In this document: piece by piece, positions 878-24,623 of the stretch
How the letters are laid out: each line of letters opens with the position of its first letter
Position numbering within the stretch: the stretch's first letter is position 1
Virus record (IMG/VR): IMGVR_UViG_3300025889_000768
Coordinates: 1-27,434 of that record
Reading direction: 5' to 3' (one strand)
DNA length: 27,434 bases
Source: a virus
Position numbers and translations under genes: made by a program
Notes under the pieces: model-generated
The model's database searches: none
What the model saw: only the letters and a program-made list of their open reading frames with translations
Told to the model about the DNA's origin: nothing

Positions 878-920
878 ATTTCCCAAGGCGATGCAAAAAG
901 CCTTTGGGGAATTTTTTTTT
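878..920 (+). terminator. Intrinsic terminator ending the late/lysis transcript
   Basis: A near-perfect hairpin pairs GATTTCCCAAGGC (877-889) with GCCTTTGGGGAAT (900-912), with one bulged T and a ten-base loop, followed by T9 (912-920). It lies after the last lysis gene and before the early operon. A smaller upstream hairpin (CCACTC 814-819 with GAGTGG 829-834) lies in the same untranslated tail. Otherwise 792-876 shows nothing I can name. Confidence 0.85.
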
Positions 921-8411: not shown

Positions 8412-8662
8412 AGAAACACACCAAAGTATATTTGCAAGGGATGGGGTACGACACTACCGACTGGATACCTTGCGAGGTGTGTAGCAAAACGGCAGTAGAC
8501 ATCCACCACATAGAGGCAAGAGGGATGGGTGGATCAGGAGAGCGAGATACGATAGAAAACCTAATGGCTCTATGTAGGGATTGCCATACCCGATACGGAG
8601 ACGTAAAGCACCACAAGGAGTGGTTGCAAGACATCCACGAAAGAAAGTTATTTAAGAGATGA
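8408..8662 (+). CDS. HNH endonuclease
   Basis: 84 aa. Zinc knuckle Cys22-x2-Cys25 and Cys56-x2-Cys59 frame the HNH core His33-His34, Asn51 and His60 (IHHIEARGMGGSG, then ENLMALCRDCHTRYG). Small HNH proteins near the terminase genes assist cleavage of packaged DNA in several phages (for example HK97 gp74), and its place just before the methyltransferase and terminase fits that. A free-standing homing nuclease is the alternative. The gene end carries an AGTTATTTAA motif. Confidence 0.88.
   Translation: MKKHTKVYLQGMGYDTTDWIPCEVCSKTAVDIHHIEARGMGGSGERDTIENLMALCRDCHTRYGDVKHHKEWLQDIHERKLFKR
8646..8655 (+). promoter_or_regulatory. AGTTATTTAA motif, copy 1
   Basis: AGTTATTTAA ending 3 nt before ATG 8659 of the methyltransferase gene, inside the last codons of the HNH gene. 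Core identical to the copies at 11273, 16329, 21577 and 24274. Candidate phage promoter or translation element. Confidence 0.35.
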
Positions 8663-9798
8663 AAGTAGATATCAAAAAGGTTATACCAAACCCCAGTAAC
8701 CCACGCATCATCAAGGATGATAAATTCAAGAAGCTGGTGAACTCCATAAAGGAGTTCCCTCAAATGCTTGAGCTACGTCCTATTGTAGTGGATAGCAATA
8801 TGGTAGTGCTTGGAGGGAATATGCGCCTTAAGGCATCTATTGCTGCTGGACTTCAAGAGGTGGATATCCTCATTGCTGATCAACTGACGGAGGAGCAGAA
8901 AGCCGAGTTTATCATCAAAGACAATGTGGGCTTTGGTGAGTGGGATTGGGATTTACTTGCTAACGAATGGGATGTAGATGCTTTAACGGAATGGGGATTG
9001 GAATTACCTTTTGATACTACGCCCGTATTGGAAGCGGAGGAAGATGACTATGAAATGCCGAGCGAGATACAAACCAATATCGTACTTGGTGATTTAATAG
9101 AGATAGGCCAACACCGATTGATATGTGGGGATAGTTCTGATTCCGACCTGATAGAAAAAGTCCTAAACGGACAAACAATAGACCTATTACTTACAGACCC
9201 TCCTTATGGTATTGACTATGGTAGTCAATTAGTAAATGGAGATGAGTATTCCGAAAAAACCAACAAGCACGGATGGAGAAACTTTGGTTCTCCTGATTGG
9301 GATAAAAAACGACCTGAAGAATCTCATCTGATTTATTTAACTCAAATAAGCGAAAATCAAATTATTTGGGGTGGTAATTACTTCACTGATTTTCTTCCGC
9401 CAAGTATGGGATGGCTTATTTGGGATAAAGGTCAAAGAGGATTTTCTCTTGCAGATGGGGAGATGGCTTGGACTTCTTTTAATAATGCACTACGAATTAA
9501 AGAATACGCTCGTGCTTTAGCAAATAGAGAAGAAAAGAATCACCCGACTCAAAAGCCCATTGAAATAATTAAATGGTGCTTTGAATATGCTGACCGACAC
9601 TCAAAGTCAAAAAACGAATTGACATTTGATGCATTTCTCGGAAGCGGCTCTACAATGGTAGCAGCACACCAACTCAACCGCAAGTGCTATGGTATGGAAC
9701 TTGACCCCAAGTACTGCCAAGTGATTGTAGACCGAATGCAGAAACTTGACCCAACGCTTGAAATCAAAATAAACGGTAAGCCGTATGGACAAAACTGA
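8659..9798 (+). CDS. ParB-like domain fused to DNA methyltransferase
   Basis: 379 aa. Residues 1-95 are a ParB/Srx-like domain (PNPSNPR, then VVLGGNMRLKASIAAG with the GxxRxxA motif). The rest is an N6-adenine or N4-cytosine methyltransferase: DPPYG at 180-184 precedes DAFLGSGST (324-332, the SAM-binding FxGxG), the beta-class order, with the target-recognition part between. It should methylate phage DNA, guarding against restriction or marking it for its own nucleases. DNA for residues about 175-320 is richer in A/T than the two ends, suggesting exchange of the target-recognition region. Confidence 0.88.
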   Translation: MKVDIKKVIPNPSNPRIIKDDKFKKLVNSIKEFPQMLELRPIVVDSNMVVLGGNMRLKASIAAGLQEVDILIADQLTEEQKAEFIIKDNVGFGEWDWDLLANEWDVDALTEWGLELPFDTTPVLEAEEDDYEMPSEIQTNIVLGDLIEIGQHRLICGDSSDSDLIEKVLNGQTIDLLLTDPPYGIDYGSQLVNGDEYSEKTNKHGWRNFGSPDWDKKRPEESHLIYLTQISENQIIWGGNYFTDFLPPSMGWLIWDKGQRGFSLADGEMAWTSFNNALRIKEYARALANREEKNHPTQKPIEIIKWCFEYADRHSKSKNELTFDAFLGSGSTMVAAHQLNRKCYGMELDPKYCQVIVDRMQKLDPTLEIKINGKPYGQN

Positions 9799-10123
9799 AC
9801 AACATAAAAAGGCAATGCTTGATGCTCTGGAGAAATCTTTGGGCGTTGTAACTGCCGCTTGTAAGGCGGTAGGTATTGGGCGCACTACGCACTACCTATG
9901 GATGCAAGAGGATGCCGAATACAAAAAGGCCGTAGAGGACTTAAACGATGTGGCTATTGACTTCGCAGAAAGTCAACTGCATAAGCAAATTAAAGACGGC
10001 AATTCCACCGCGACAATCTTCTACCTAAAAACAAAGGGTAAGAAGCGAGGTTATGTAGAACGCCAAGAGATAGAAGCTACCGGAGGTAAGATGTTCCAAA
10101 TAGAGATTCTTGGCGAAGATTGA
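9785..10123 (+). CDS. terS: Terminase small subunit
   Basis: 112 aa. An N-terminal helix-turn-helix (SLGVVTAACKAVGIGRTTHYLWM, residues about 18-40) is typical of TerS DNA-recognition domains, followed by an oligomerisation helix (VEDLNDVAIDFAESQLHKQI) and a tail GKKRGYVERQ. TerS binds the packaging site and regulates TerL. It overlaps the methyltransferase by 14 nt and TerL by 14 nt. Confidence 0.88.
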   Translation: MDKTEQHKKAMLDALEKSLGVVTAACKAVGIGRTTHYLWMQEDAEYKKAVEDLNDVAIDFAESQLHKQIKDGNSTATIFYLKTKGKKRGYVERQEIEATGGKMFQIEILGED

Positions 10124-11264
10124 AACCAATAAGGTATTCGGACACCTACTGCGCTCGGATAAGAAAATCATCGTAGAGCAAGGTGGTACTCGTAGTGGTA
10201 AGACCTACAATATCTTGCTATGGATCATCTTTAAGTATACCGAGCAAGAGACGGACAAAACCATAACCATCTGCCGTAAGACCTTCCCCTCCCTCCGGGC
10301 ATCGGTAATGAGGGACTTCTTTGATATATTAAGAATACACGACCTCTACATAGAGGAACACCACAACAAGTCCAACCACGAATACTACCTCAACGGAAAC
10401 CTCATTGAGTTTATCTCGCTTGATCAGCCTCAAAAGATTCGCGGTAGAAAGCGTAACCTACTTTTCATCAACGAAGCAAACGAGCTATTTTTAGAGGACT
10501 GGCAGCAGCTCGTATTCCGCACCGATGGGCGCATCATCCTTGACTACAACCCATCCGATTCCTTCCATTGGATCTACGATAGGGTGATACCCCGCGATGA
10601 CTGCGACTTCTTTCAAACAACCTATAAAGACAATCACTTTCTTGATCCAAGCATCAGGGAGGAGATTGAGAGGCTACGAGATACCGATGAGGACTACTGG
10701 CGTATCTATGGCTTGGGTGAGCGCGGTATGTCCCGCGCCACCATCTTCCAATTCCAAATAGCCGATGAGCCAAAGGGCAACCTCGTTTCGATGGGTCTTG
10801 ACTTCGGATTCACCAATGACCCTACCTCATTGGTCAAGGTCTACAAGGACGGTGATGACCTATACATCCAAGAGCTGCTCTACCATACCAACCTCACCAA
10901 CCAAGACATTAGCGACAAGTTCAGGGAGTTTGGCCTCACGCGGTATGATGAGATATGGGCAGATAGCGCAGAGCCAAAGAGCATTGAGGAACTGCATCGT
11001 ATGGGATGGAATGTAAAGCCCACCGCAAAGGGGGCTGACTCCGTAATGGCTGGGATAGACATCCTCAAGCGTCACCGCATCCACGTTGTTAAGGACTCTC
11101 TAAATGCTATCAAGGAATTCCAAAACTACAAGTGGCAAGAGGACAAGAACGGCAACCTTCTCAACCGCCCAATAGACGCATTCAATCACGCTATTGATGC
11201 CACGCGATACGCTACCTTTAACCGACTCTCCCGCCCTAACTACGGGCGGTATGCGATACGCTAA
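10110..11264 (+). CDS. terL: Terminase large subunit
   Basis: 384 aa, Terminase_3-type packaging motor. Walker A is G25-GTRSGK-T32; Walker B is LLFINEAN (117-124), with Glu122 catalytic; a Q-loop-like SLDQPQKIRGRKRN precedes it. The C-terminal RNase H-like nuclease shows GLDFGFTNDPTS (about 229-240) and the last Asp in DAFNHAIDATRY. Start: the only codon that gives a complete N terminus and couples to TerS is TTG 10110 (no ATG in frame before Walker A), an unusual start for this genome. It cuts concatemers or circles and drives DNA into proheads. Confidence 0.95.
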   Translation: MAKIETNKVFGHLLRSDKKIIVEQGGTRSGKTYNILLWIIFKYTEQETDKTITICRKTFPSLRASVMRDFFDILRIHDLYIEEHHNKSNHEYYLNGNLIEFISLDQPQKIRGRKRNLLFINEANELFLEDWQQLVFRTDGRIILDYNPSDSFHWIYDRVIPRDDCDFFQTTYKDNHFLDPSIREEIERLRDTDEDYWRIYGLGERGMSRATIFQFQIADEPKGNLVSMGLDFGFTNDPTSLVKVYKDGDDLYIQELLYHTNLTNQDISDKFREFGLTRYDEIWADSAEPKSIEELHRMGWNVKPTAKGADSVMAGIDILKRHRIHVVKDSLNAIKEFQNYKWQEDKNGNLLNRPIDAFNHAIDATRYATFNRLSRPNYGRYAIR

Positions 11265-11288: not shown

Positions 11289-11957
11289 ATGAATATCATA
11301 GTACCCAACCGCCTTGATGAGATCACCCTTGGTCAGTATCAACGCTTCCAAAAATTGGAAGGCGATGAGGACTTCTTGGGGCGTAAGATGGTAGAGATTT
11401 TCTGCGGTATAAAGATGGATGTCATCAAAAAGATGAAGGTGTCCTCCATCACCAAGATAAACGAGACCCTCCTCAAGGCGTTCTCCAAACGCCCGGAGTT
11501 CCAATCCACCTTCAAGATGGATGGTGTGGAGTACGGCTTTATCTCTAACCTTGATGAGATCACCTTCGGTGAGCTTCACGACATTGAGACCACCATCACG
11601 GACTGGCAACGGATGAACGAAACGATGGCGGTGCTATACCGCCCTATCGTGCAAAAGATGGGTAAGAGGTATCGCATTAAGGACTACGATGCGGATGCCC
11701 TACAAGCAGAGCTAATGCGTAAGATGCCTTTGAGTGCTGCAATGGGGGCTATGGTTTTTTTTTGCGATTTAGGGATGGATTTATCAAGAACTTTCCTGAC
11801 ATCTTTAGCGAAGGAGAAGCAGATCAGTTCAGCAGCGAGTCCCAGTTCTCAAGACGCTGGGGATGGTTTCCTTTATTCTACTCTCTTGCTCAAGGGGATG
11901 CTACCCGATTTGATGACGTTTCCAAACTCAACGCAGCCTTCGCACTCACCTACCTGA
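11289..11957 (+). CDS. Probable tail assembly chaperone, zero-frame product
   Basis: 222 aa as read straight through. Residues 1-158 look genuine (ITLGQYQRFQKLEGDEDF, then FGELHDIETTITDW, ending AAMGAMVFF). After T9 at 11755-11763 the zero frame becomes low-complexity and Ser/Pro-rich (SSAASPSSQDAG), while the -1 frame continues as a protein-like sequence. Tail assembly chaperones of many siphoviruses are made as a short form and a frameshifted long form (lambda G and GT). It is the first gene of the tail module, as expected. I read the zero-frame tail as either the short form's end or an artefact of an indel. Confidence 0.6.
   Translation: MNIIVPNRLDEITLGQYQRFQKLEGDEDFLGRKMVEIFCGIKMDVIKKMKVSSITKINETLLKAFSKRPEFQSTFKMDGVEYGFISNLDEITFGELHDIETTITDWQRMNETMAVLYRPIVQKMGKRYRIKDYDADALQAELMRKMPLSAAMGAMVFFCDLGMDLSRTFLTSLAKEKQISSAASPSSQDAGDGFLYSTLLLKGMLPDLMTFPNSTQPSHSPT
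11755..11763 (+). other. T9 slippery tract, probable -1 frameshift site
   Basis: GTT TTT TTT TGC in the zero frame allows re-pairing one base back on T runs; a -1 shift after codon 158 enters the frame 11762-12019. RNA polymerase slippage on the same tract would have the same effect. A homopolymer length error in the assembly is the other explanation. Confidence 0.6.
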
Positions 11958-12019
11958 CTTTTGAGAAAGACAAATTAGACACGGAAAATAAGATACTAAA
12001 GAAAAGCATTAAGCGATGA
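11762..12019 (+). CDS. Tail assembly chaperone, C-terminal part in the -1 frame
   Basis: 85 codons with no credible start of their own (first codon TTG inside the T tract). The sequence RDGFIKNFPDIFS, then WGWFPLFYSLAQGDATRFDDV, then LNAAFALTYLTFEKDK is well-formed protein, of a kind I know from the C termini of this phage protein family. Joined by a -1 shift to residues 1-158 of the upstream frame it gives a 243-aa protein. Its stop overlaps the next start (ATGA at 12016), so translation reaches the next gene from this frame. Confidence 0.7.
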   Translation: MRFRDGFIKNFPDIFSEGEADQFSSESQFSRRWGWFPLFYSLAQGDATRFDDVSKLNAAFALTYLTFEKDKLDTENKILKKSIKR

Positions 12020-12483: not shown

Positions 12484-13019
12484 TGATTTGGGAGAATACA
12501 AACGCCTACCTAACGGCCTTTGCAGATAGGGTGTTGCAACAAGCGCAATTAGAGCTTGGGGCATACCGTACTATTGACGGCAAGAGACGGAGGACGGACT
12601 CCTCCGGTAGGTTGCGCGAATCACTTCCGGGATCGTATACCCTAAAGACAATGGATAGCTCCATTGACCTCAAGTTTTTTGAGAACAACGATGCGTGGAA
12701 GACCTACGGCTATGTGGTAGACCAAGGGCGTAAGCCCGGCAAGGGCGTACCTCCTGATGCGTTGAAGGCGTGGATACGCCAAAAGCCTATCCGCTTGAGG
12801 GACTTGGAGACGGGAAGCTTTGTAAAAGCCACCGAAGCAAGAGTCAATTCATTAGCCTACCTGATCAACCGAAAGATTAAGCAAAAGGGCATTGCCCCTA
12901 CTTACTTCTTCCAAACACCCTTTAGAATAGCATTTGAACAACTACCGAAGGAAATCACAGAGCCATTTGGCTTGGACGTAGCGGACTTCCTTCGCTTCAC
13001 ATTAGGTAAAGAAAAATGA
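12483..13019 (+). CDS. HK97 gp10-like tail completion protein
   Basis: 178 aa. The N-terminal helix ENTNAYLTAFADRVLQQAQ, the conserved basic loop GRLRESLPGSYTLK, the VVDQGRKPGKGVPPDALKAWI segment and a final Phe-rich part with PTYFFQTPFR match the HK97 gp10 type of neck or tail-completion protein, which joins head connector and tail. TAATG overlap with the gene before and ATGA with the gene after. Confidence 0.6.
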   Translation: MIWENTNAYLTAFADRVLQQAQLELGAYRTIDGKRRRTDSSGRLRESLPGSYTLKTMDSSIDLKFFENNDAWKTYGYVVDQGRKPGKGVPPDALKAWIRQKPIRLRDLETGSFVKATEARVNSLAYLINRKIKQKGIAPTYFFQTPFRIAFEQLPKEITEPFGLDVADFLRFTLGKEK

Positions 13020-14287
13020 GTACACCCACTTTAGGCTATCCCGAAAGCCTACGCTTTAGCCGTAGCCCAATCTTTGTAACGGGCAAGAATAACGCTCTTG
13101 CTAACGACTCACTTGATAGTATGACGCTTGGCGTTAAGTTGTATACGGGGGCTAAAACAAGCCCCCCAGCTTCTAACAACTACTCATTGAGCAAGGCTTA
13201 CTCTATTGATGAGGTAATCAACTTTGAGATCAGCAATCTCACGCAAGACCAGTACTCCCATCCTATGGGCTTGTTCAATATTAGTACCTTTAGCGCAAGT
13301 GAGGTCGGTGAAGTTATTTGGGTTGCTATTGCTGGGGATTGGACGTATTCAGATAATGGCGCAACGCCCGTAACCGCCCCTTGGGGAACGGGTACTACCT
13401 ATGCGTTTCTTGCTACCGATGGATGGACAAAAAGAGGCGAGGCACAAAACCGAAAGTACGACTCGGCACGAATGACCATTGACCGCACCTATCAGGTATA
13501 TGCGTCTCACCGCCAATCTCTCGCTTCTCAATATGCTGCCTACACGGGACTAAACGGAGTGGTGTATAAGATTGACGGCACTAATTACTGGTATGTCCTT
13601 GCGGATGAGTTGGGCTTTTCAAACACATCTAACGAAAGCCAAAACAAGGTAATCTATATCCCAAGTGGAGTGCCTAACATTGAAGACTTGGTAGGAGTAA
13701 CGCCTACGACTACCTACTCAATTGGCCTGATCACTAACAACGAGGGCATTGACTACAAGGCGCGAGTAGAGGCAGACGGAGGCACGGTAGAGGGGTTCAC
13801 TTGCCTAATGAATGCCATTGAAGCTCTTGGAGGCGTAGATGCCGATACGCACAACTATGAGGTGGTGTGCGAAACGAAATATACTCCCGAAATAATCCAG
13901 TATGTCAATCGCTATGGAGTAAGTGATTACCTCACCTTCTTTAAGGTAAGCACGGAGCAAGGCACATTTACTAACGACCAATACAAGCGTAGCCTCTATG
14001 CTGATGCCTTTACCGAGCCGGACTTTAAGACGGCTCAATACCAAGATTTCAATGTCAATTCACGAAACACTATCACCCTAAATACGGGCTGGGTAGAGGA
14101 AGCCTATAAGGATGTGATTGAGGATATGCTGATGAGCGAGGATGTACGCATCTATGAGGGCGGTAGCTACCGAAGCGTAAATCCCCAACGCGGTACGATT
14201 GACTACCAAAAATCAGTCAACACCAAAAACATCAATTACACCATCACGTTTACCTACGGGCATAACGAGCGCAATTTGATCCGATGA
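13016..14287 (+). CDS. Structural tail protein, 423 aa
   Basis: Beta-rich with many Thr, Asn and Tyr, no signal peptide. Residues about 247-270 hold a short module (YKARVEADGGTVEGFTCL) that recurs twice in the small protein at 24303. The C-terminal part (DYQKSVNTKNINYTITFTYGHNERN) is predicted beta strands. It lies two genes before the tape measure, coupled to the large protein after it. It may be a tail tube or baseplate component; the family is not certain. Confidence 0.6.
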   Translation: MSTPTLGYPESLRFSRSPIFVTGKNNALANDSLDSMTLGVKLYTGAKTSPPASNNYSLSKAYSIDEVINFEISNLTQDQYSHPMGLFNISTFSASEVGEVIWVAIAGDWTYSDNGATPVTAPWGTGTTYAFLATDGWTKRGEAQNRKYDSARMTIDRTYQVYASHRQSLASQYAAYTGLNGVVYKIDGTNYWYVLADELGFSNTSNESQNKVIYIPSGVPNIEDLVGVTPTTTYSIGLITNNEGIDYKARVEADGGTVEGFTCLMNAIEALGGVDADTHNYEVVCETKYTPEIIQYVNRYGVSDYLTFFKVSTEQGTFTNDQYKRSLYADAFTEPDFKTAQYQDFNVNSRNTITLNTGWVEEAYKDVIEDMLMSEDVRIYEGGSYRSVNPQRGTIDYQKSVNTKNINYTITFTYGHNERNLIR

Positions 14288-16314: not shown

Positions 16315-16469
16315 CAAAGGGCTTTATTAGTTATTTAATTGAGGTACTCCAAGGTGATGACCACCTTGGCGTATCAGACAATGTAGAGATAGCAAAGGGA
16401 AAATATCACCTTCCAACCACTTGGGGTGAAGGTAAAAAATTGATACGCAGACAATGGCTGAACAAGTAG
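16311..16469 (+). CDS. Small 52-aa protein before the tape measure
   Basis: ATGA overlap with the preceding stop, and the 3' end overlaps the tape-measure start by 16 nt. The product begins MTKGFISYLIEVLQGDDHLG and ends in a basic tail (GKKLIRRQWLNK). Codons 7-10 contain the AGTTATTTAATT motif, which reads SYLI. The coupling on both sides suggests real translation. Function unknown. Confidence 0.55.
   Translation: MTKGFISYLIEVLQGDDHLGVSDNVEIAKGKYHLPTTWGEGKKLIRRQWLNK
16329..16343 (+). promoter_or_regulatory. AGTTATTTAATTGAG motif, copy 3
   Basis: Identical to the copy at 21577-21591 over 15 bases, plus the two T bases before. Here it lies inside the 52-aa gene, 110 nt before the tape-measure ATG, so it cannot be a ribosome-binding element for that gene. 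This position favours a promoter role. Confidence 0.4.
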
Positions 16470-18205
16470 AAGTAGAGATTAAAGTATCCTCCAATATTGG
16501 GGAGGCTGCTGGGGATGTAACCAGCGGAATTGATAGTATCAAAAGCTCTGCTAAAGAAGCCCAAGCAAGTGTTGTTGATATGGGGGAAAGCACGGACGGT
16601 GCTATCCAGCTTATTGATGAGGGCTTTGGTGGTATTGGAACGCGAATTAAAAACGTATACAAGGGCGCAACCGCATTAGGTAAAAACTTTGTTGCTTCCT
16701 TTAAGGCGGGTATCGCTGGTGCAAACGGGATGAAGAAAGCCCTCGTTGCTTCGGGCATTGGGGCTTTGGTCGTTGCACTTGGCTTGATCGTAGCCTATTG
16801 GGATGACATCTTGGGATTGGTCAATGGCGTAAGCTCTGCCCAAAAAGACCAATTAGCAGCAGCGGAGGCAAACGTAGCAGCACAAGAGGAGGCATCCGAG
16901 ATGCTCTCCTTGCAAGAAAACTCCTTGCGCCTTCAGGGCAAGAGTGAGCGTGAGATTCGGGATTTAAAAATCCAGCAGACCAACGAGACTATTGCTGCTC
17001 TTGAGGCTCAATTGGAAACCCAAAAGCAAATCAAGAAATCACAAGTAGAGGCTGCCAATCGCAACAAGGCCATCCTTCAAGGGATCATACGCTTTGTTAC
17101 CGCACCTATCACCTTGCTTCTTGCTGGTATTGATGCGGTAGGTAAAGCCTTTGGTAAGGACTTTGGTTTAGAGGAAGGCTTCTCCGGGGGAATTGCTGGA
17201 TTGGTATTTGATCCCGATGAGGTAGCAGCAGAGGGTGATGCTGCAATCAAAGAGACGGAAAAGAAACTTGCTCAACTCAAAAACACAAGGGACGGCTACC
17301 TTGTAGCCAATCAAAATGAAGAAAAGGTAGCAGCTAAATCCGCGCAAGATGCGCGAGATAAAGCGGGTGAGGAGCAATTAAGAAAGCAACAAGAGTTGCA
17401 AAATAAACTCCTTGAGTCCGAGGCCAACTACCAAAAGCAGTTGCAAGACACAAGGGACAAATTTGATGAGTTGGTATTGTCCCAGCAAGTATCTGCCGAG
17501 CAACAAGAAATCAATGCCGTCTATGACAAGTTCTTTGCTCTTGAAGAAGCCTATGCAAATAACGCGGAAGAACTCGCGCAGATAGAAGCGCAACGCAATA
17601 AGGAACTTGCAGCCATCAACGACAAGTACCGCAAGGAAGAGGCCGATGCCCAACAAGAAGACTTGGACAGGCAAAAAGCCTACCGCCAACAAATAAAAGA
17701 CCTTGCGGTGGATTCGGTAATGAGTACGTTTAGTTCCCTAAAGGAACTCAATAGTATCTATGACAAGGATAGCGAAGAGGCAGCCAAACGCGCCTTTATG
17801 CGCGAGAAAGCCTTGAGCCTTGCAGAGACCATTGTAAGCACTTATTCCTCTGCTCAAAAGGCATATGCCTCCCAGTTGATTCCGGGCGATCCTACGTCCG
17901 TTGTACGCGCTCAAATAGCTGCTGGTGTAGCCATTGCGGGTGGCCTCGCAAGAGCTGCCACCATCGCCTCTCAAAAGTTCCAATCTTCAAGTGAGAGTTC
18001 CACCGTACCTTCCGCGCCTTCTGCGCCAAGTGTGCAAGGCGTATCGCCTCAATTCAATATCGTAGGACAAGGAGGTACGAACCAACTGGCGCAAAGCATT
18101 GGTGCTAAATTTGACCAACCTATCCGCGCCTTTGTCGTAGGAGGCGATGTAACAACCTCTCAAGAGTTAGAACGCAAACGAATTAAAACCGCAACATTCG
18201 GATGA
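16454..18205 (+). CDS. Tail tape measure protein
   Basis: 583 aa, the second longest structural gene of the tail block. A Gly/Ala/Ser-rich N terminus (SSNIGEAAGDVTSGIDSIKSS), a hydrophobic segment (about 97-116, ALVASGIGALVVALGLIVAYW), then long coiled coils rich in Q, E, K and A (residues about 130-430), and a low-complexity C terminus (SSSESSTVPSAPSAPS). This is the usual plan of tape measure proteins, which set tail length and help DNA entry. At about 1.5 angstroms per residue the tail would be about 85-90 nm, a short siphovirus tail. Confidence 0.85.
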   Translation: MAEQVEVEIKVSSNIGEAAGDVTSGIDSIKSSAKEAQASVVDMGESTDGAIQLIDEGFGGIGTRIKNVYKGATALGKNFVASFKAGIAGANGMKKALVASGIGALVVALGLIVAYWDDILGLVNGVSSAQKDQLAAAEANVAAQEEASEMLSLQENSLRLQGKSEREIRDLKIQQTNETIAALEAQLETQKQIKKSQVEAANRNKAILQGIIRFVTAPITLLLAGIDAVGKAFGKDFGLEEGFSGGIAGLVFDPDEVAAEGDAAIKETEKKLAQLKNTRDGYLVANQNEEKVAAKSAQDARDKAGEEQLRKQQELQNKLLESEANYQKQLQDTRDKFDELVLSQQVSAEQQEINAVYDKFFALEEAYANNAEELAQIEAQRNKELAAINDKYRKEEADAQQEDLDRQKAYRQQIKDLAVDSVMSTFSSLKELNSIYDKDSEEAAKRAFMREKALSLAETIVSTYSSAQKAYASQLIPGDPTSVVRAQIAAGVAIAGGLARAATIASQKFQSSSESSTVPSAPSAPSVQGVSPQFNIVGQGGTNQLAQSIGAKFDQPIRAFVVGGDVTTSQELERKRIKTATFG

Positions 18206-19134
18206 AACTAATAGAACTGATCATAGATGAGAATGAATTCTTCTCCGGCATCAATGCCATCTCCCTTGTGGAGTACCCAGCCATTGAGGAGGACTTTATT
18301 GCCCTCTCCAAGCAGAAGGTAGAATTCGCTACCCAAAACGCAGAGAAGCGCATCCTTATGGGTGCTGCTCTCGTTCCCAACAAACCCATCTATCGCAAGG
18401 ACGGTGAGGAGGAGTTTTATGTCTACTTCACCAAAGACACCATCCGCAAGGCGAGTGAGATGTTCTTTCAAAAGGGCAACCAAAATAACTCCACCCTTGA
18501 ACACGAAGATAGCATTGACGGGATGAGCGTTGTGGAATCTTGGATCATTGAAGATGAGGAGAAGGACAAGAGCCGTATGTACGGCCTTGAGCTTCCAGTA
18601 GGCACTTGGATGGTATCTATGAAGGTCAACAACCCTGACATTTGGGAGAACTACGTCAAGACCAACAAGGTCAAGGGCTTTTCTATTGAAGGCTACTTTG
18701 CCGACAAGGTAAATATGAGTCGCAACCCCCTTGCCGAGATTGAAGAGCAAGAGGCTGCTCTGATCCTATCCTCCATCGTAGGTATCATCAAGCGAGACGG
18801 CAGACGCAAAAGCGGTAAGCGTTTGGAGATGGAATCCTACACCGACTACCCCGATGCGGTGAAGAACAATGCCAAGCGAGGCATTGAGCTAAACGAAAAG
18901 AACGGAAACAAGTGCGCTACTGATGTCGGCAAGATACGAGCGCAACAACTCGCACAAGGCAAACCCATAAGCGTAGAGACCATCACCCGTATGTATTCCT
19001 ATCTCTCAAGAGCCGAAGAGTACTACGATGAGAGCGACTCCTCTGCGTGTGGTACTATATCCTTCCTCCTATGGGGAGGGAAGGCTGGTAAACGATGGGC
19101 AGAATCTAAACTCAAAGAACTTGGTAAACTATGA
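18202..19134 (+). CDS. Prohead protease (XkdF-like) with extra C-terminal domain
   Basis: 310 aa. Residues 1-200 carry the XkdF-type serine protease signature: His101 in TLEHEDSI, VVESWIIEDEEKDKS, GTWMVSMKV, and the nucleophile Ser161 in VKGFSIEGYF. It would process scaffold and capsid during head maturation. Residues about 205-310 are a separate helical domain (DYPDAVKNNAKRGIELNEKNG, then ISVETITRMYSYLSR, then ISFLLWGGKAGKRWAE), an attachment I have met in other phage proteins but whose role is unclear. ATGA overlaps with both neighbours. Confidence 0.85.
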   Translation: MKLIELIIDENEFFSGINAISLVEYPAIEEDFIALSKQKVEFATQNAEKRILMGAALVPNKPIYRKDGEEEFYVYFTKDTIRKASEMFFQKGNQNNSTLEHEDSIDGMSVVESWIIEDEEKDKSRMYGLELPVGTWMVSMKVNNPDIWENYVKTNKVKGFSIEGYFADKVNMSRNPLAEIEEQEAALILSSIVGIIKRDGRRKSGKRLEMESYTDYPDAVKNNAKRGIELNEKNGNKCATDVGKIRAQQLAQGKPISVETITRMYSYLSRAEEYYDESDSSACGTISFLLWGGKAGKRWAESKLKELGKL

Positions 19135-19274
19135 AACCCCCTAAAGTAAACAACGCATCACCCAAAGGCTCAAAGCGTGGGTGCTTATGCAAGGACAAGA
19201 ACACCTACTCCCGTAAGTGCTGCGATGGTAGCCTATGGGCGCAAGGCGTGGGCAATGTAACCTTGCCCTCTTAA
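19131..19274 (+). CDS. Small Cys-rich protein, 47 aa
   Basis: ATGA overlap with the protease. The pattern GSKRGCLCKDKNTYSRKCC followed by DGSLWAQGVG occurs in small proteins of many Bacteroidota phages as I recall. Four cysteines (18, 20, 30, 31) could bind zinc or form a capsid-associated metal site. Its place between protease and scaffold suggests a head-assembly role. Confidence 0.65.
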   Translation: MKPPKVNNASPKGSKRGCLCKDKNTYSRKCCDGSLWAQGVGNVTLPS

Positions 19275-19326
19275 AAATGTAACAAAACATTCAAGCATAG
19301 TCATTTATTTAGAAGCAATTCAAATT

Positions 19327-19947
19327 ATGAAGGCACAAAACGTATTGAACAAAATCTTGACCGAACTCGCACAAATCCGCAAGGTAGAGTTCGCTCAAAT
19401 GAACCTTGAGAACGGTACTATTCTTGAGGCTGAAGAGTTCGCTCCTGAAAACGAAGTATTTATTATTTCGGGCGAGGAGCGTGTACCCGCACCAGTCGGG
19501 GAACACAAATTGGAAGATGGAAGCATCCTCGTTATTGTTGAGGAAGGCATCATCTCCGAGATCAAGGAGGCTGAAGCCCCCGAAGCAGAGGTAGAGGTTG
19601 AGATGCAATCCGAGGAAGCCGTAGCGGTTGCCGAGGAGGTTGCTGCTGACGTTGCTACGGAAGCTGCTGATGCAATCACCGAAGAGGTATCTGCTGCCAT
19701 TGAGGTTGCAGTTGCCGAAGCTCTTGCTCCCGTTGTTGAGGAAGTTGCTGCCGAGATGAAAAAGCTCCGCGAGGAGTTGTCATCTGCCAAGACGGAGATG
19801 GCTGCTATGGAGAAGAAGTTCTCTTCTCAATCTGCTGCCCGTCCTATCAAGCACAACCCATCCAAGCAAGAACCTAAACAAGCAATGTTCTCATCCAAGC
19901 GTCAACCCAACACGCTTGACCGAGTATTGGCAAAATTGAATAACTAA
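19327..19947 (+). CDS. Capsid scaffolding protein
   Basis: 206 aa. The N-terminal part is beta-like (GTILEAEEFAPENEVFIIS, then LEDGSILVIVEEG), followed by a long Ala/Glu/Val-rich helical region (about 80-165) and a basic, disordered C terminus (RPIKHNPSKQEPKQ, then TLDRVLAKLNN). Position between protease and major capsid, acidic coiled core and basic capsid-binding tail fit a scaffold that is removed by the protease. It has no ATGA overlap; the 52-nt gap contains a variant of the recurrent motif (AGTCATTTATTTAG, 19299-19312). Confidence 0.75.
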   Translation: MKAQNVLNKILTELAQIRKVEFAQMNLENGTILEAEEFAPENEVFIISGEERVPAPVGEHKLEDGSILVIVEEGIISEIKEAEAPEAEVEVEMQSEEAVAVAEEVAADVATEAADAITEEVSAAIEVAVAEALAPVVEEVAAEMKKLREELSSAKTEMAAMEKKFSSQSAARPIKHNPSKQEPKQAMFSSKRQPNTLDRVLAKLNN

Positions 19948-19965
19948 TTTTTTTCTTTTTTTAAA

Positions 19966-20892
19966 ATGGCTACGACCACTTCTATCACCACTTCATACGC
20001 TGGACAGTTTGCTGCCAAGTATGTATCTGCTGCTTTGTTGAGCGCAGACACGTTGGATAAAGGTCTCGTTGAGATCCTCCCCAACGTAAACTTCAAGTCA
20101 ACCTTGCAAAAGGTTGCTACCGATGACATCGTAAAAGATGCAACGTGTGACTTCACCCCTACCTCTACGCTGACGTTGACCGACCGCGTATTGGAGGTTG
20201 AGCCTTTCCAAGTTAACCTTCAGCTTTGTAAGAAGGACTACTACGATTCTTGGATTGGTTCTCAAATGGGCTACTCTGCTTACGATAGCATCCCCGCCTC
20301 TTTCAGCGATTTCTTGATTGCACACGTTGCTGCCAAGACCGCACAAAAGATTGAGCAAAACATTTGGCAAGGCGTTAACGCTACTGCTGGTGAGTTTGAC
20401 GGCTTCACTACTTTGATGGCTGCTGATGCTGACGTTGTAGACGTAACTGGTACTACCGTTACTGCTGCAAACGTCATCACCGAGCTTGGCAAGGTTGTAG
20501 ACGCTATCCCTTCTGCTCTTTACGGCAAGGAGGACTTGACCATCTACGTTCCTCAAAACGTAGCTAAAGCGTATGTTCGCGCTTTGGGTGGTTTCGGTAC
20601 TTCCGGTTTGGGTGCTAACGGTGTTGACAACAAAGGCACTATGTGGTACGGTCAAGGCGATTTGTTCTTTGATGGTATCCGCGTTGCTATGGTTAACGGT
20701 TTGGCTTCTAACAAGATGGTTGCTGCTCAATCTTCTAACTTGTTCTTCGGTACTGGCCTTGAGTCTGACCGCAACGAGGTGAAGGTTTTGGATATGGGCG
20801 ATCTTGATGGCTCAAACAACATCCGCGTTATCTTGCGCTTCTTGGCTGGTGTTCAGTATGGCATCGGTGCTGACTGTGTATTGTACGCCTAA
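19966..20892 (+). CDS. Major capsid protein
   Basis: 308 aa. Starts ATATTSITTSYAGQF and is rich in Ala, Val and Gly with preferred codons (GCT, GTT, AAC, ACT), as highly expressed genes are. Features include VEPFQVNLQLCKKDYYDSW, KTAQKIEQNIWQG and a DLTIYVPQNVAKAYVRALGG segment, in line with an HK97-fold capsid. It follows the scaffold and is followed at once by a strong terminator. The leader (TTTTTTTCTTTTTTTAAA) is free of structure. Confidence 0.85.
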   Translation: MATTTSITTSYAGQFAAKYVSAALLSADTLDKGLVEILPNVNFKSTLQKVATDDIVKDATCDFTPTSTLTLTDRVLEVEPFQVNLQLCKKDYYDSWIGSQMGYSAYDSIPASFSDFLIAHVAAKTAQKIEQNIWQGVNATAGEFDGFTTLMAADADVVDVTGTTVTAANVITELGKVVDAIPSALYGKEDLTIYVPQNVAKAYVRALGGFGTSGLGANGVDNKGTMWYGQGDLFFDGIRVAMVNGLASNKMVAAQSSNLFFGTGLESDRNEVKVLDMGDLDGSNNIRVILRFLAGVQYGIGADCVLYA

Positions 20893-20913
20893 TTGATTTG
20901 ATTGATTAACCTC

Positions 20914-20947
20914 AAGGGGGTGAGGGTTCTGCCCCACCCCCTTTTTT
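20914..20947 (+). terminator. Intrinsic terminator after the capsid gene
   Basis: GGGGGTGAGGG (20916-20926) pairs with CCCCACCCCC (20932-20941) with one bulged A, followed by T6. It ends the capsid transcript 20 nt after the stop and would reduce transcription of the next gene unless partly read through. Confidence 0.9.
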
Positions 20948-20959
20948 ATTTAAAAAGAT

Positions 20960-21508
20960 ATGGCTTGTAACTTAACCGCTGGACGTGCCATCCCTTGTAA
21001 AGACGTTGTTGGTGGCATCAAAGCTGCCTACTTCGTTAACTACGGGGATTTGGGTACACTCACCTTGACAAACGATGAGGTGACAGATATGAGTGGAACT
21101 TTCTCCGCTTACAAATACGAACTAAAAGGTGCTTCTAACTTGGAGCAATCTTTCAACTCAAGCCGTGAGAACGGCACTACCTTCTTTGAGCAGACGTTGA
21201 CTTTGCAGTTCACCAAGCTCACGAAGGAAGACAACAAGGAGTTGAAGTTGATGGCTTACGGACGCCCTCACGTTGTAGTTCAGGACTACAATGACAACTG
21301 CTTCTTAATGGGTGCATATCACGGTGCAGAGGTTACTGGTGGCTCAATTGTTACTGGTACTGCTATGGGTGATTTGTCGGGTTATACCTTAACTTTGACG
21401 GCTCAAGAAGTTCTTCCCGCAAACTTCATCGCAAGTCCTACGGCATCTGATCCATTTAACGGTATGGCAAGTGCTACGGTAACGATTGTTGAGGGTACGA
21501 ACTCCTAA
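20960..21508 (+). CDS. Probable major tail tube protein
   Basis: 182 aa. Starts MACNLTAGRAIPCKDVVGGI, a start I recognise in structural proteins of Bacteroidota phages. A beta-barrel-like body (SAYKYELKGASNLEQSF, then FFEQTLTLQFTKL, then MGAYHGAEVTGG, then GDLSGYTLTLTAQEVLPANF) recalls tail tube proteins. It uses the same preferred codons as the capsid gene and is enclosed between two strong terminators, as expected of an abundant product. Alternative: a head decoration protein. Confidence 0.55.
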   Translation: MACNLTAGRAIPCKDVVGGIKAAYFVNYGDLGTLTLTNDEVTDMSGTFSAYKYELKGASNLEQSFNSSRENGTTFFEQTLTLQFTKLTKEDNKELKLMAYGRPHVVVQDYNDNCFLMGAYHGAEVTGGSIVTGTAMGDLSGYTLTLTAQEVLPANFIASPTASDPFNGMASATVTIVEGTNS

Positions 21509-21530
21509 CATTTCTTTCATTTGGTAGGGA

Positions 21531-21556
21531 GAGGGGGCGTAAGCCCCCTTTCTTTT
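21531..21556 (+). terminator. Intrinsic terminator with GUAA tetraloop
   Basis: GGGGGC (21533-21538) pairs with GCCCCC (21543-21548) around the loop GTAA, a GNRA tetraloop, extended by A/T pairs and followed by TTTCTTTT. It ends the tail-tube transcript. A copy of the recurrent motif lies 21 bases further on. Confidence 0.88.
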
Positions 21557-21576
21557 GGAATAAACTTTGGCATTTT

Positions 21577-21591
21577 AGTTATTTAATTGAG
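21577..21591 (+). promoter_or_regulatory. AGTTATTTAATTGAG motif, copy 4
   Basis: Directly before ATG 21592 and just after the terminator at 21531-21556. Transcription must restart here or read through, which makes this copy the best single argument for a promoter role. Confidence 0.5.
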
Positions 21592-21951
21592 ATGCATATA
21601 ATAACACCCACACAAGGTCAAGAAATTCGGTTTATCCCACGGGTGGCGGTGGCTTCGCCCAACACTCAAATTATTGATGAGAGCCGAAACAAAGACATTA
21701 CCTCCGAGATATTAAACCAATCGGGATCGTATACAAACGGGATAACAACCTTGTTTCTAAATTTCAAGGAAGGAAAATTCCCCGTAGAGGGAAGGTTCTA
21801 TACCTTCAAGGCATACAACATTGCTACGGGAGATGTTTACTACCGAGGCCGTTTGTTCTGCACCGCCCAAACTATCTTTGACAAGTACACCGTCAACGAG
21901 GGGGTATATACCGAAGAAGATTCTTTTGACAATGAATTCGTGATCATATGA
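21592..21951 (+). CDS. Conserved-type structural protein, 119 aa
   Basis: Beta-rich: ITPTQGQEIRFIPR, then TLFLNFKEGKFPVEGRFYTFKAYN, then GDVYYRGRLFCTAQTIFDKY. Proteins of this pattern occur next to portal genes in Bacteroidota phages as I recall; a role in the head or connector is likely. ATGA overlap with the portal gene. Confidence 0.55.
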   Translation: MHIITPTQGQEIRFIPRVAVASPNTQIIDESRNKDITSEILNQSGSYTNGITTLFLNFKEGKFPVEGRFYTFKAYNIATGDVYYRGRLFCTAQTIFDKYTVNEGVYTEEDSFDNEFVII

Positions 21952-23723
21952 GCAAATTCCATTTTGTAAATCTATCAAGCTACACCTCCCCGGAGATCAG
22001 GGAGGTAAGCAACCGCGATTGGGTGGAGTACGGAGAGGATAACAATTACTTTCAATTCCTGATAGACCGCTTTCAAGGAAGCCCTACTAATAACGCCATC
22101 ATCAATGGCATCTCCGAACTGATCTATGGAAAGGGCTTGGATGCTACGGATTCAGCGCGTAAGCCCGAAGCCTACGCTCAAATGAAGTCCCTCTTTAGTA
22201 AGCAATGCCTTCGCAATGCGTCTTCGGATTTTAAGATGCTTGGGCAATGTGCTTTTCAAGTCATCTACTCCCAAGACCACTCCGCTATCACGGAGGTATA
22301 CCATATGCCCGTTGAGAGCCTACGAGCCGAGAAGTGCAACGAGGAAGGCGAGATTGAGGCGTACTACTACGCCAAGGATTGGAGTGATGTAAAAAATAAT
22401 AAAGAAACGCCTCAACGCATTCCCGCTTTTGGATTTTCCAACGAAGGCATTGAAATCCTATACGTCAAGCCCTACCGCGCTGGATTCTATTACTACGCCC
22501 CCGTGGACTATCAGGGAGGCATTCAATACGCAGAGCTTGAGGAGGAGGTAGCCAACTACCACCTCAACAACATCAAGAACGGGATGTCCCCCTCTATGCT
22601 TATTAACTTCAACAACGGAGTACCTACGGAGGAGGAGCGTTACATCATTGAGAACAAGGTAGCGGAGAAGTTCTCCGGAACTTCCAACGCTGGTAAGTTC
22701 ATCTTGGCATTTAACGACAACAAGGAGATGGCTGCGGATATCACGCCCGTTCAGCTCTCCGATGCTTCCCAGCAATATCAGTTCTTGGCTGACGAGGCAA
22801 TGCGTAAGATTATGGTTGCCCACCGCGTTACCTCTCCTATGCTTTTGGGCATCAAAGACCAAAGCGGATTGGGTAACAATGCGGATGAGCTTATGACGGC
22901 TTCGCAGTTGTTTGACAACATCGTAATCCGTCCGATGCAAGAGACCATCCTTGATGGCTTGGACAAGATCCTCGCCTACAACGATATCTCTTTGAACTTA
23001 TACTTCAAGACCCTCCAGCCTATTGAGTTCACCGATGCAACGGTGACCAATCAAGCTATCATTGAAGAAGAAACTGGCGTTAAGATGTCAAGCGACATCC
23101 CATCCTTTAGCAAAGAGGAGGAATCTGCTTGGATTGAAGAACTGCGGGGAAAGGGTGAGGTCATTGATTTAAACGAATGGGAACTCATCTCTGATGAGGT
23201 AGTCAATGACCCCGACAACGAGGATTCCCACCTCTCCAAGCAATATAATTTTGGCGTTGAGGACTACTCCAATGCTGACGGAGATAGCAAATACGATAGT
23301 GGCCTTTACAAGGTACGTTATGCATATACTCGCAACTTGAGTGCTAACTCCCGCCTCTTTTGTCAAGAGATGGTTTCGGCAGCCAATAGTGGGGTGGTAT
23401 TCCGCAAGGAAGACATTGATATGATGTCTTTTTCGGGTGTCAATGGACAGTTCGCACCAAAAGGGCGTAATGTCTACTCCATTTGGAAGTGGAAGGGTGG
23501 CGTTTACTGCCACCACGCTTGGAGGCGTTTGGTCTACTTCCGCAAGAGAAATAATAAAGGGGAGTTCTTGCCCGATGCTGGTCTTGAGAATGACAAGGTG
23601 GTAAGCACCGAAGCAGCAATCAAGGCTGGTGTGCCAAGCAAGAAATTAGTTCCAACGGCTTGGGATGAAGCCCAAACACGACCAATTGACACACCTAATA
23701 GAGGCTCACTAAAAAATAGATAA
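21948..23723 (+). CDS. Portal protein with C-terminal accessory domain
   Basis: 591 aa. Residues 1-400 are portal-like: NNAIINGISELIYGKGLD (48-65), RNASSDFKMLGQCAFQVIY, PVESLRAEKC, and the stem/wing part HRVTSPMLLGIKDQSGLGNN (292-311). The portal forms the ring through which DNA enters and leaves the head. Residues about 452-535 are a separate domain with the signature SRLFCQEM, FRKEDIDMM, SGVNG, SIWKWKGG, CHHAWRRL. I have seen it on other Bacteroidota phage head proteins; its function is unknown. The portal lies after the capsid gene and far from the terminase. Confidence 0.85.
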   Translation: MSKFHFVNLSSYTSPEIREVSNRDWVEYGEDNNYFQFLIDRFQGSPTNNAIINGISELIYGKGLDATDSARKPEAYAQMKSLFSKQCLRNASSDFKMLGQCAFQVIYSQDHSAITEVYHMPVESLRAEKCNEEGEIEAYYYAKDWSDVKNNKETPQRIPAFGFSNEGIEILYVKPYRAGFYYYAPVDYQGGIQYAELEEEVANYHLNNIKNGMSPSMLINFNNGVPTEEERYIIENKVAEKFSGTSNAGKFILAFNDNKEMAADITPVQLSDASQQYQFLADEAMRKIMVAHRVTSPMLLGIKDQSGLGNNADELMTASQLFDNIVIRPMQETILDGLDKILAYNDISLNLYFKTLQPIEFTDATVTNQAIIEEETGVKMSSDIPSFSKEEESAWIEELRGKGEVIDLNEWELISDEVVNDPDNEDSHLSKQYNFGVEDYSNADGDSKYDSGLYKVRYAYTRNLSANSRLFCQEMVSAANSGVVFRKEDIDMMSFSGVNGQFAPKGRNVYSIWKWKGGVYCHHAWRRLVYFRKRNNKGEFLPDAGLENDKVVSTEAAIKAGVPSKKLVPTAWDEAQTRPIDTPNRGSLKNR

Positions 23724-24223: not shown

Positions 24224-24306
24224 GCAAGAAGCGAAACTACGAACCCAAGAAGGTGAACGTATTAAAGCTTAAAAGTTATTTAATTAGGAAAGAAGCAAAG
24301 AAATGA
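24220..24306 (+). CDS. Small basic peptide, 28 aa
   Basis: Linked by ATGA overlaps to the genes before and after. Very basic (MSKKRNYEPKKVNVLKLKS, then RKEAKK). Codons 19-22 (SYLI) are the AGTTATTTAATT motif. It may be a real peptide or only a coupling frame. Too short for the usual gene finders. Confidence 0.45.
   Translation: MSKKRNYEPKKVNVLKLKSYLIRKEAKK
24274..24285 (+). promoter_or_regulatory. AGTTATTTAATT motif, copy 5
   Basis: AGTTATTTAATT followed by AGGAAAGAAGCAAAGAA before ATG 24303, 17 nt away. Lies inside the 28-aa frame. Opens the fibre and lysis block. Confidence 0.45.
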
Positions 24307-24623
24307 GTAATCTAATAAATTGGGGGGCGATATACTGCGAAAGCTGGTGGGGCGATACTGACCTAACTACGCTTTCTATTCAGAATGAGAGCGCACCTCC
24401 TTGCTTTGCTCCTACCAATGATATTGCTATTGCTTTCCAAGAGCGTGTAGAGGCCGATGGTGGTACACTTGAGGGCTACGATTGCTTGGTAGCTGCCTTG
24501 CAAGATCTTGGAGAAGATAACTATTATGAATTGTGGGACACCTACATTTTGAGAATGACAAACGATGGGGCAACGATAGAAGCAGAAGATTGCCTAATTG
24601 ACCAACTATTTAACTTGAATTGA
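24303..24623 (+). CDS. Small structural protein with two RxxxDGGTxE modules
   Basis: 106 aa. Two tandem copies of one short module: residues 48-69 (RVEADGGTLEGYDCL, then AALQDL) and 84-105 (RMTNDGATIEAEDCL, then DQLFNL). A third copy lies in the 423-aa tail protein (residues 250-270). The N terminus holds an aromatic and Cys-rich stretch (YCESWWGD). It directly precedes the fibre gene and may be a fibre adaptor. No family name known to me. Confidence 0.6.
   Translation: MSNLINWGAIYCESWWGDTDLTTLSIQNESAPPCFAPTNDIAIAFQERVEADGGTLEGYDCLVAALQDLGEDNYYELWDTYILRMTNDGATIEAEDCLIDQLFNLN

Follow-up and report, generated by a model that had tools for sequence, protein, structure and literature searches.

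Probable programmed -1 recoding at a conserved T-run in a tail gene of phages of Flavobacteriia

A run of nine T residues (T9) in a tail gene of a phage of Flavobacteriia is most probably a site of programmed -1 recoding, whichever machine slips, and the probability of this reading is put at about 0.85. The gene lies in the window, that is, the whole stretch of 27,434 nucleotides analysed (IMG/VR virus record IMGVR_UViG_3300025889_000768, positions 1 to 27,434). As the T-run is conserved in hundreds of related phages, it almost certainly represents a deliberate frame slip rather than a sequencing error. Comparison of the sequences shows a conserved tract, a conserved extension in the -1 frame, constraint on both frames beyond the tract, and no start codon from which the extension could be translated independently. 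In the proposed mechanism, the zero frame would be kept in most decoding and would end at 11957 to give a G-like protein of 222 amino acids, while a minority of decoding would shift at U_UUU_UUU to give a product of 243 amino acids, in which the same 158 N-terminal residues are followed by a helical C-terminal domain. We infer that both proteins are made, in some ratio of short to extended form. By analogy with G and GT of phage lambda, the role of the short form would be to coat the tape measure protein, and that of the extended form to recruit the tail tube protein. The features concerned, all on the plus strand, are as follows.

10110..11264, +, terminase large subunit (TerL), directly upstream of the gene (Pfam Terminase_3, E=1e-22; PHROG 2, E=9e-45)
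11289..11957, +, zero-frame product, 'G-like', 222 aa (open reading frame; PHROG 32199, E=1.7e-18)
11289..12019, +, predicted extended product of a -1 shift, 'GT-like', 243 aa (computed join after FF)
11755..11763, +, T9 tract (zero-frame codons GTT TTT TTT TGC)
11756..11762, +, candidate slippery heptamer T_TTT_TTT, in frame (third base of GTT and two TTT Phe codons)
11762..12019, +, -1 frame extension, putative 'T-like' domain, 85 codons and stop
11764..11957, +, segment probably coding in both the zero and the -1 frame (from open-frame length and third-position divergence)
11770..11772, +, TAG closing the third (+1) frame directly after the tract (read from the sequence)
12016..12019, +, ATGA overlap of the extended product's stop (TGA 12017-12019) and the start of the next gene (ATG 12016-12018)
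16454..18205, +, tape measure protein, downstream (PHROG 24676, tail length tape measure protein, E=3e-12)

The positions of the tract, the 222-aa zero frame, the -1 frame reaching 12019 and the 243-aa join are all as given in the initial annotation of this DNA. The peptide quoted there, WGWFPLFYSLAQGDATRF, is indeed encoded in the -1 frame, which is open from within the tract to its TGA, and the coupling of this stop to the next gene was likewise borne out. A T9 tract by itself is not rare, as two are found in the window against 1.05 expected by chance, and it is therefore the conservation of the tract that counts. The second T9 of the window (912-920) lies outside the listed longer genes and may be the tail of a terminator.

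Scans of viral contigs and bacterial genomes yielded 473 loci of the family. The 318 distinct junctions compared come from related contigs, viral or prophage, and include the isolate genome of Nonlabens phage P12024S. The T domain is found in the -1 frame at 317 of the 318 distinct junctions, which gives strong support to the suggestion of the initial annotation that two products are made; its question of whether homologues are split or read in a single frame is answered by the same count, the split falling at the T-run. The sequence signature of -1 recoding, one gene with a short and an extended product, is thus present at all junctions but one. The longest T run at the site is T9 at 298 of the distinct junctions, T10 at 17 and T8 at 2, and T9 or T10 occurs in all of the first 174 loci that cover it. 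The conserved site reaches down to about 20-30% protein identity. At every junction checked codon by codon T_TTT_TTT is in frame, and in the window it forms the in-frame X_XXY_YYZ heptamer of a ribosomal -1 frameshift exactly at the frame transition. The two Phe codons of the tract are invariably TTT; among the other Phe codons of the same gene in the window's close group, TTC:TTT is 59:26 (TTC in 59 of 85). Other T9 runs in about 840 kb of related loci do not occur within coding regions, and most are located in the spacer between TerL and the gene. On this comparative evidence the slip site is selected as DNA.

Two exceptional loci were encountered, one (L326) in which T9 is kept and a small indel lies downstream, and one (L395) in which the site is missing through a deletion; each is probably an assembly error or a defective copy. 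In Nonlabens phage P12024S, at about 30% identity, T9 is found at the same place, and a homologue was also found in the sister phage P12024L; the gene pair annotated in these phages as gp38 and gp39 conceals the same join as two unjoined halves. A scan of genome contigs with a single sequence as query returned no loci, and a profile search used in its place returned six loci in genomes of Flavobacteriia. Related loci are distributed amongst genome bins of Winogradskyella and Flavobacterium and in Flavobacterium sp. MFBS3-15, indicating that the hosts of this phage family are Flavobacteriia. In many relatives the spacer between TerL and the gene carries a short G/C-rich stretch followed by T8-T9 (L083:712-720, L062:3946-3954, L014:3950-3990 and similar loci). 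It resembles an intrinsic terminator or attenuator placed in front of the tail genes and is missing from the window; these spacer runs account for most of the other T9s in the related loci.

Sequencing errors are frequent in homopolymers, and one more T would join the two frames. The initial annotation accordingly offered, besides two products, the possibility that the assembly has lost one T from a true T10, and a broken pseudogene would look much the same. The loss of a base is excluded, since hundreds of assemblies made independently of one another, and two isolate genomes, show the same T8-T10 site, with the frames out of register at 317 of 318 distinct junctions; the pseudogene reading is contradicted by purifying selection on both frames, and the two together keep a negligible probability. 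Slightly more credible, and still very improbable, is that the -1 frame is a separate gene which starts inside or just after the tract and is never fused to the upstream part. A TTG codon is present at 11762, and a separate gp39 is annotated at the same place in P12024S and P12024L; the annotated start of gp39, however, falls deep within the conserved domain. In only 4 of 140 relatives does an ATG occur in the interval from the upstream stop to codon 25 of the -1 open reading frame, and its positions are scattered. The upstream stop in the -1 frame lies a median of 47 nt before the tract, so that conservation sets in at the slip site, and the heptamer would not be conserved under independent initiation.

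The zero frame was said in the initial annotation to lose its protein character after the T9 tract, which proved to be wrong. Its open stretch continues to 11957, and beyond the tract it is still matched by the PHROG 32199 profile (residues 1-167), with 68.4 bits against 60.7 for the join. Measured in 140 distinct relatives, the open stretch of the zero frame after the tract has a median length of 166 nt, compared with 19 nt after synonymous shuffling of the codons of the -1 frame. Third-position divergence was compared in 41 non-overlapping close pairs: for the -1 frame it is 0.19 within the overlap and 0.27 where that frame alone is read (p=3e-7), the corresponding value for the zero frame upstream of the tract being 0.36 in the same pairs. 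Synonymous divergence drops right at the tract and recovers about 55 codons further on, where the zero frame stops. The lowered divergence in the overlap and the long open zero frame thus indicate constraint on both frames over 50-75 codons in most members of the family. The length varies, the zero-frame tail being shorter in some clades (22-122 nt) and measuring 76 nt in P12024S. The distance from the slip site to the zero-frame stop averages 26 nt in the SEA-PHAGES training data (PMC10885494), which represent known cases of the mycobacteriophage type, and the 50-75 codons of dual-frame selection found here are much longer than in annotated phage cases.

All 41 relatives searched match PHROG 32199, a family with no assigned function. 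The AlphaFold model of the zero-frame protein has a mean pLDDT of 80 and a pTM of 0.71 and contains a long predicted helix (residues 148-182) that spans the slip site, beyond which confidence falls. The -1 domain is predicted to be a small helical unit (pLDDT 74.5), the two parts having been modelled separately and not as a joined protein. Among 33 diverse relatives the -1 extension is conserved, with a WGW motif and L65 nearly invariant. Sequence searches of the PDB found no relative of either the zero-frame protein or the -1 domain, and a fold search of the PDB with the zero-frame model gave no match at E<=1. In BFVD the same model matches many uncharacterised phage proteins, including one of Flavobacterium phage 6H (E=8.5e-4), and one protein named as a tail assembly chaperone (E=0.02, probability 0.99), the other strong matches being uncharacterised. 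Several remote viral proteins, 226-267 aa long, match the G model and the T model alike within one open reading frame; judged from these model matches, the two parts appear to form one uninterrupted protein in remote relatives, which speaks for the joined product being a real architecture.

The structurally related gene of Flavobacterium phage 6H was left out of the family comparison: although it ends at T_TTT_TTC, the -1 frame there runs straight into a stop, and a T domain could not be recognised. The 6H protein lies at L317:9501-10927 on the minus strand and is probably AGN89393.1 (191 aa), the T_TTT_TTC being located shortly before its stop.

A function as tail assembly chaperone, the name given in the initial annotation, is plausible by analogy and from weak tail matches, and no named chaperone family was matched. 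PHROG 166, 'tail protein', is matched weakly by 15 of the 41 relatives (best E=5e-4). Searches of Pfam with the 41 family members found no known tail assembly chaperone family. A tblastn search of phages with the T domain of the window found no match, and a second tblastn search with the T domain found weak matches to P12024 alone. The gene adjoins TerL and is separated by four genes from the tape measure gene, and so does not occupy the position between the major tail protein and tape measure genes that marks lambda G/GT. In pairs of that type the tape measure protein is bound by the short form and the tail tube protein by the extension, and neither form is part of the virion.

As to which machine slips, mainly ribosomal slippage, which we infer as the leading mechanism, is given about an even chance, mainly RNA polymerase slippage distinctly less than that, and a joint action of both less again. 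The remark of the initial annotation that the tract would also favour polymerase slippage is a fair one. In the polymerase reading, which is possible but the less favoured of the two, RNA polymerase would slip on the T9 template and add one U in some transcripts, and the U10 message would be translated normally into the extended product, so that the ratio would be set in transcription. In bacterial transcription, slippage on nine consecutive A or T is efficient (PMC5009743), the homopolymer threshold for transcriptional slippage is eight (PMC3711429), and slippage insertions are mostly of single bases and increase exponentially as the run lengthens (PMC5574713); the gain of one U gives exactly the -1 frame. 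An A/T homopolymer of this kind, about eight or more and conserved in length, is what is found here, as T8-T10 at all but one of the distinct junctions, although any T9 also contains an in-frame heptamer and the conserved tract therefore fits ribosome and polymerase alike. No member of the family has T7 or shorter, though the ribosome would need no more than a T7 heptamer. The run also slides in phase (0, 1, 2) while its length stays at 8-10; the flanking T residues, however, are equally explained by a hydrophobic residue before the tract (NTT) and by Leu or Phe in the -1 frame after it. At six loci, which amount to few independent events, the Phe codon that follows the two TTTs is always TTC, where TTT would make a run of 11 or 12, and in the one case worked through (L036) the change from TTC to TTT after the tract is silent in both frames.

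No RNA stimulator was detected at the site, which favours the polymerase, but the P2 tail gene shifts on a T-rich heptamer without one, and a stimulator is optional for -1 frameshifting in phage tail genes. Predicted RNA folding upstream and downstream of the tract in 47 relatives is no better than that of shuffled sequences (mean z +0.15 to +0.58), and the value at the tract of the window is z -0.28. Rfam gave no match at the site, and a Shine-Dalgarno-like element upstream occurs in 10 of 140 relatives against 13% in the control, with no excess. The apparently bounded length of 8-10 and the lack of a stimulator mean that polymerase slippage may contribute, and the pattern of lengths hints that the length of the T-run is itself selected. 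The third frame is closed within 24 nt of the tract in 140 of 140 distinct relatives; this early stop was considered as a sign of polymerase slippage and was dropped, because such closure is common by chance, at 61% of other positions.

In lambda, standard translation gives G and a small share of ribosomes shifts by -1 to give GT; the ratio of G to GT is important for assembling the tail, and the tail tube protein is bound through the T part (PMC5009743). As read from its sequence, the present gene resembles lambda G/GT in that two products would share an N-terminus, the longer one gaining a C-terminal T domain by a -1 shift, and in having a tape measure gene downstream. It is unlike lambda G/GT in using T9 in place of a mixed heptamer, in a zero frame that continues for 50-75 codons where the short product of lambda or P2 ends soon after the site, in the lack of detectable sequence homology, and in its place beside TerL rather than directly before the tape measure gene. 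In P2, E/E+E' is produced by a -1 shift at TTTTTTG without RNA structure (PMC3091744). That case shares with the present one the direction of the shift, a T-rich heptamer, the absence of a downstream RNA structure, and a short and an extended tail protein, but its heptamer has six T followed by G where an uninterrupted T8-T10 is found here, no family relation was detected, and the long dual-coding overlap is particular to the present gene. Genes expressed by transcriptional slippage include Shigella spa13 and mxiE, Thermus dnaX and Citrobacter tssM (PMC5009743, PMC4256274), which likewise have an A or T homopolymer of about nine or more in the coding region and yield one protein in two lengths. 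None of them is a phage tail gene, and the T-run here also forms an in-frame ribosomal slip heptamer. The closest counterparts are gp38 of Nonlabens phage P12024S and its P12024L homologue (PHROG 32199), which belong to the same family and have the T9 site and the -1 extension, although their annotation as two hypothetical proteins leaves the join unrecognised. On the simplest reading, by analogy, the working principle would be of the lambda G/GT and P2 E/E+E' kind. The literature searched contained neither a description of the T-run site nor a tail gene using transcriptional slippage.

Several other features of the window were observed. The products of 18202-19134 and 19327-19947 both match PHROG 24921, at positions 13-184 and 224-277 of 349, and from these matches it seems that two genes here share what is elsewhere a single protease/scaffold protein. 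The order of genes in 16454-23723 is unusual, with the tape measure gene ahead of the protease, capsid, tail-tube-like and portal genes; the candidate for the tail tube protein is encoded at 20960-21508. Two otherwise different proteins, encoded at 13016-14287 and 24303-24623, have the motif VEADGGT.EG..CL in common, which suggests a small repeated module. Finally, a ParB-like nuclease domain is fused to a DNA methyltransferase at 8659-9798, just before the terminase genes.

Programmed recoding at the T-run would add a large unannotated phage family, with hundreds of contigs and listed under 'unknown function' in PHROGs, to the users of -1 recoding, and would provide an annotation rule for its members, namely to join the two frames across the T-run. 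The long dual-coded overlap raises the question of what role is played by the short form's own tail. As no stimulator accompanies a run whose length is kept at 8-10, the family also offers a natural comparison of ribosomal with transcriptional slippage. It is a tentative and rather unlikely proposal that the ratio of short to extended form is set by polymerase slippage on the length-conserved T9 and that the zero-frame product carries a functional, dual-coded C-terminal tail; if true, the gene would be the equivalent of lambda G/GT at the level of transcription.
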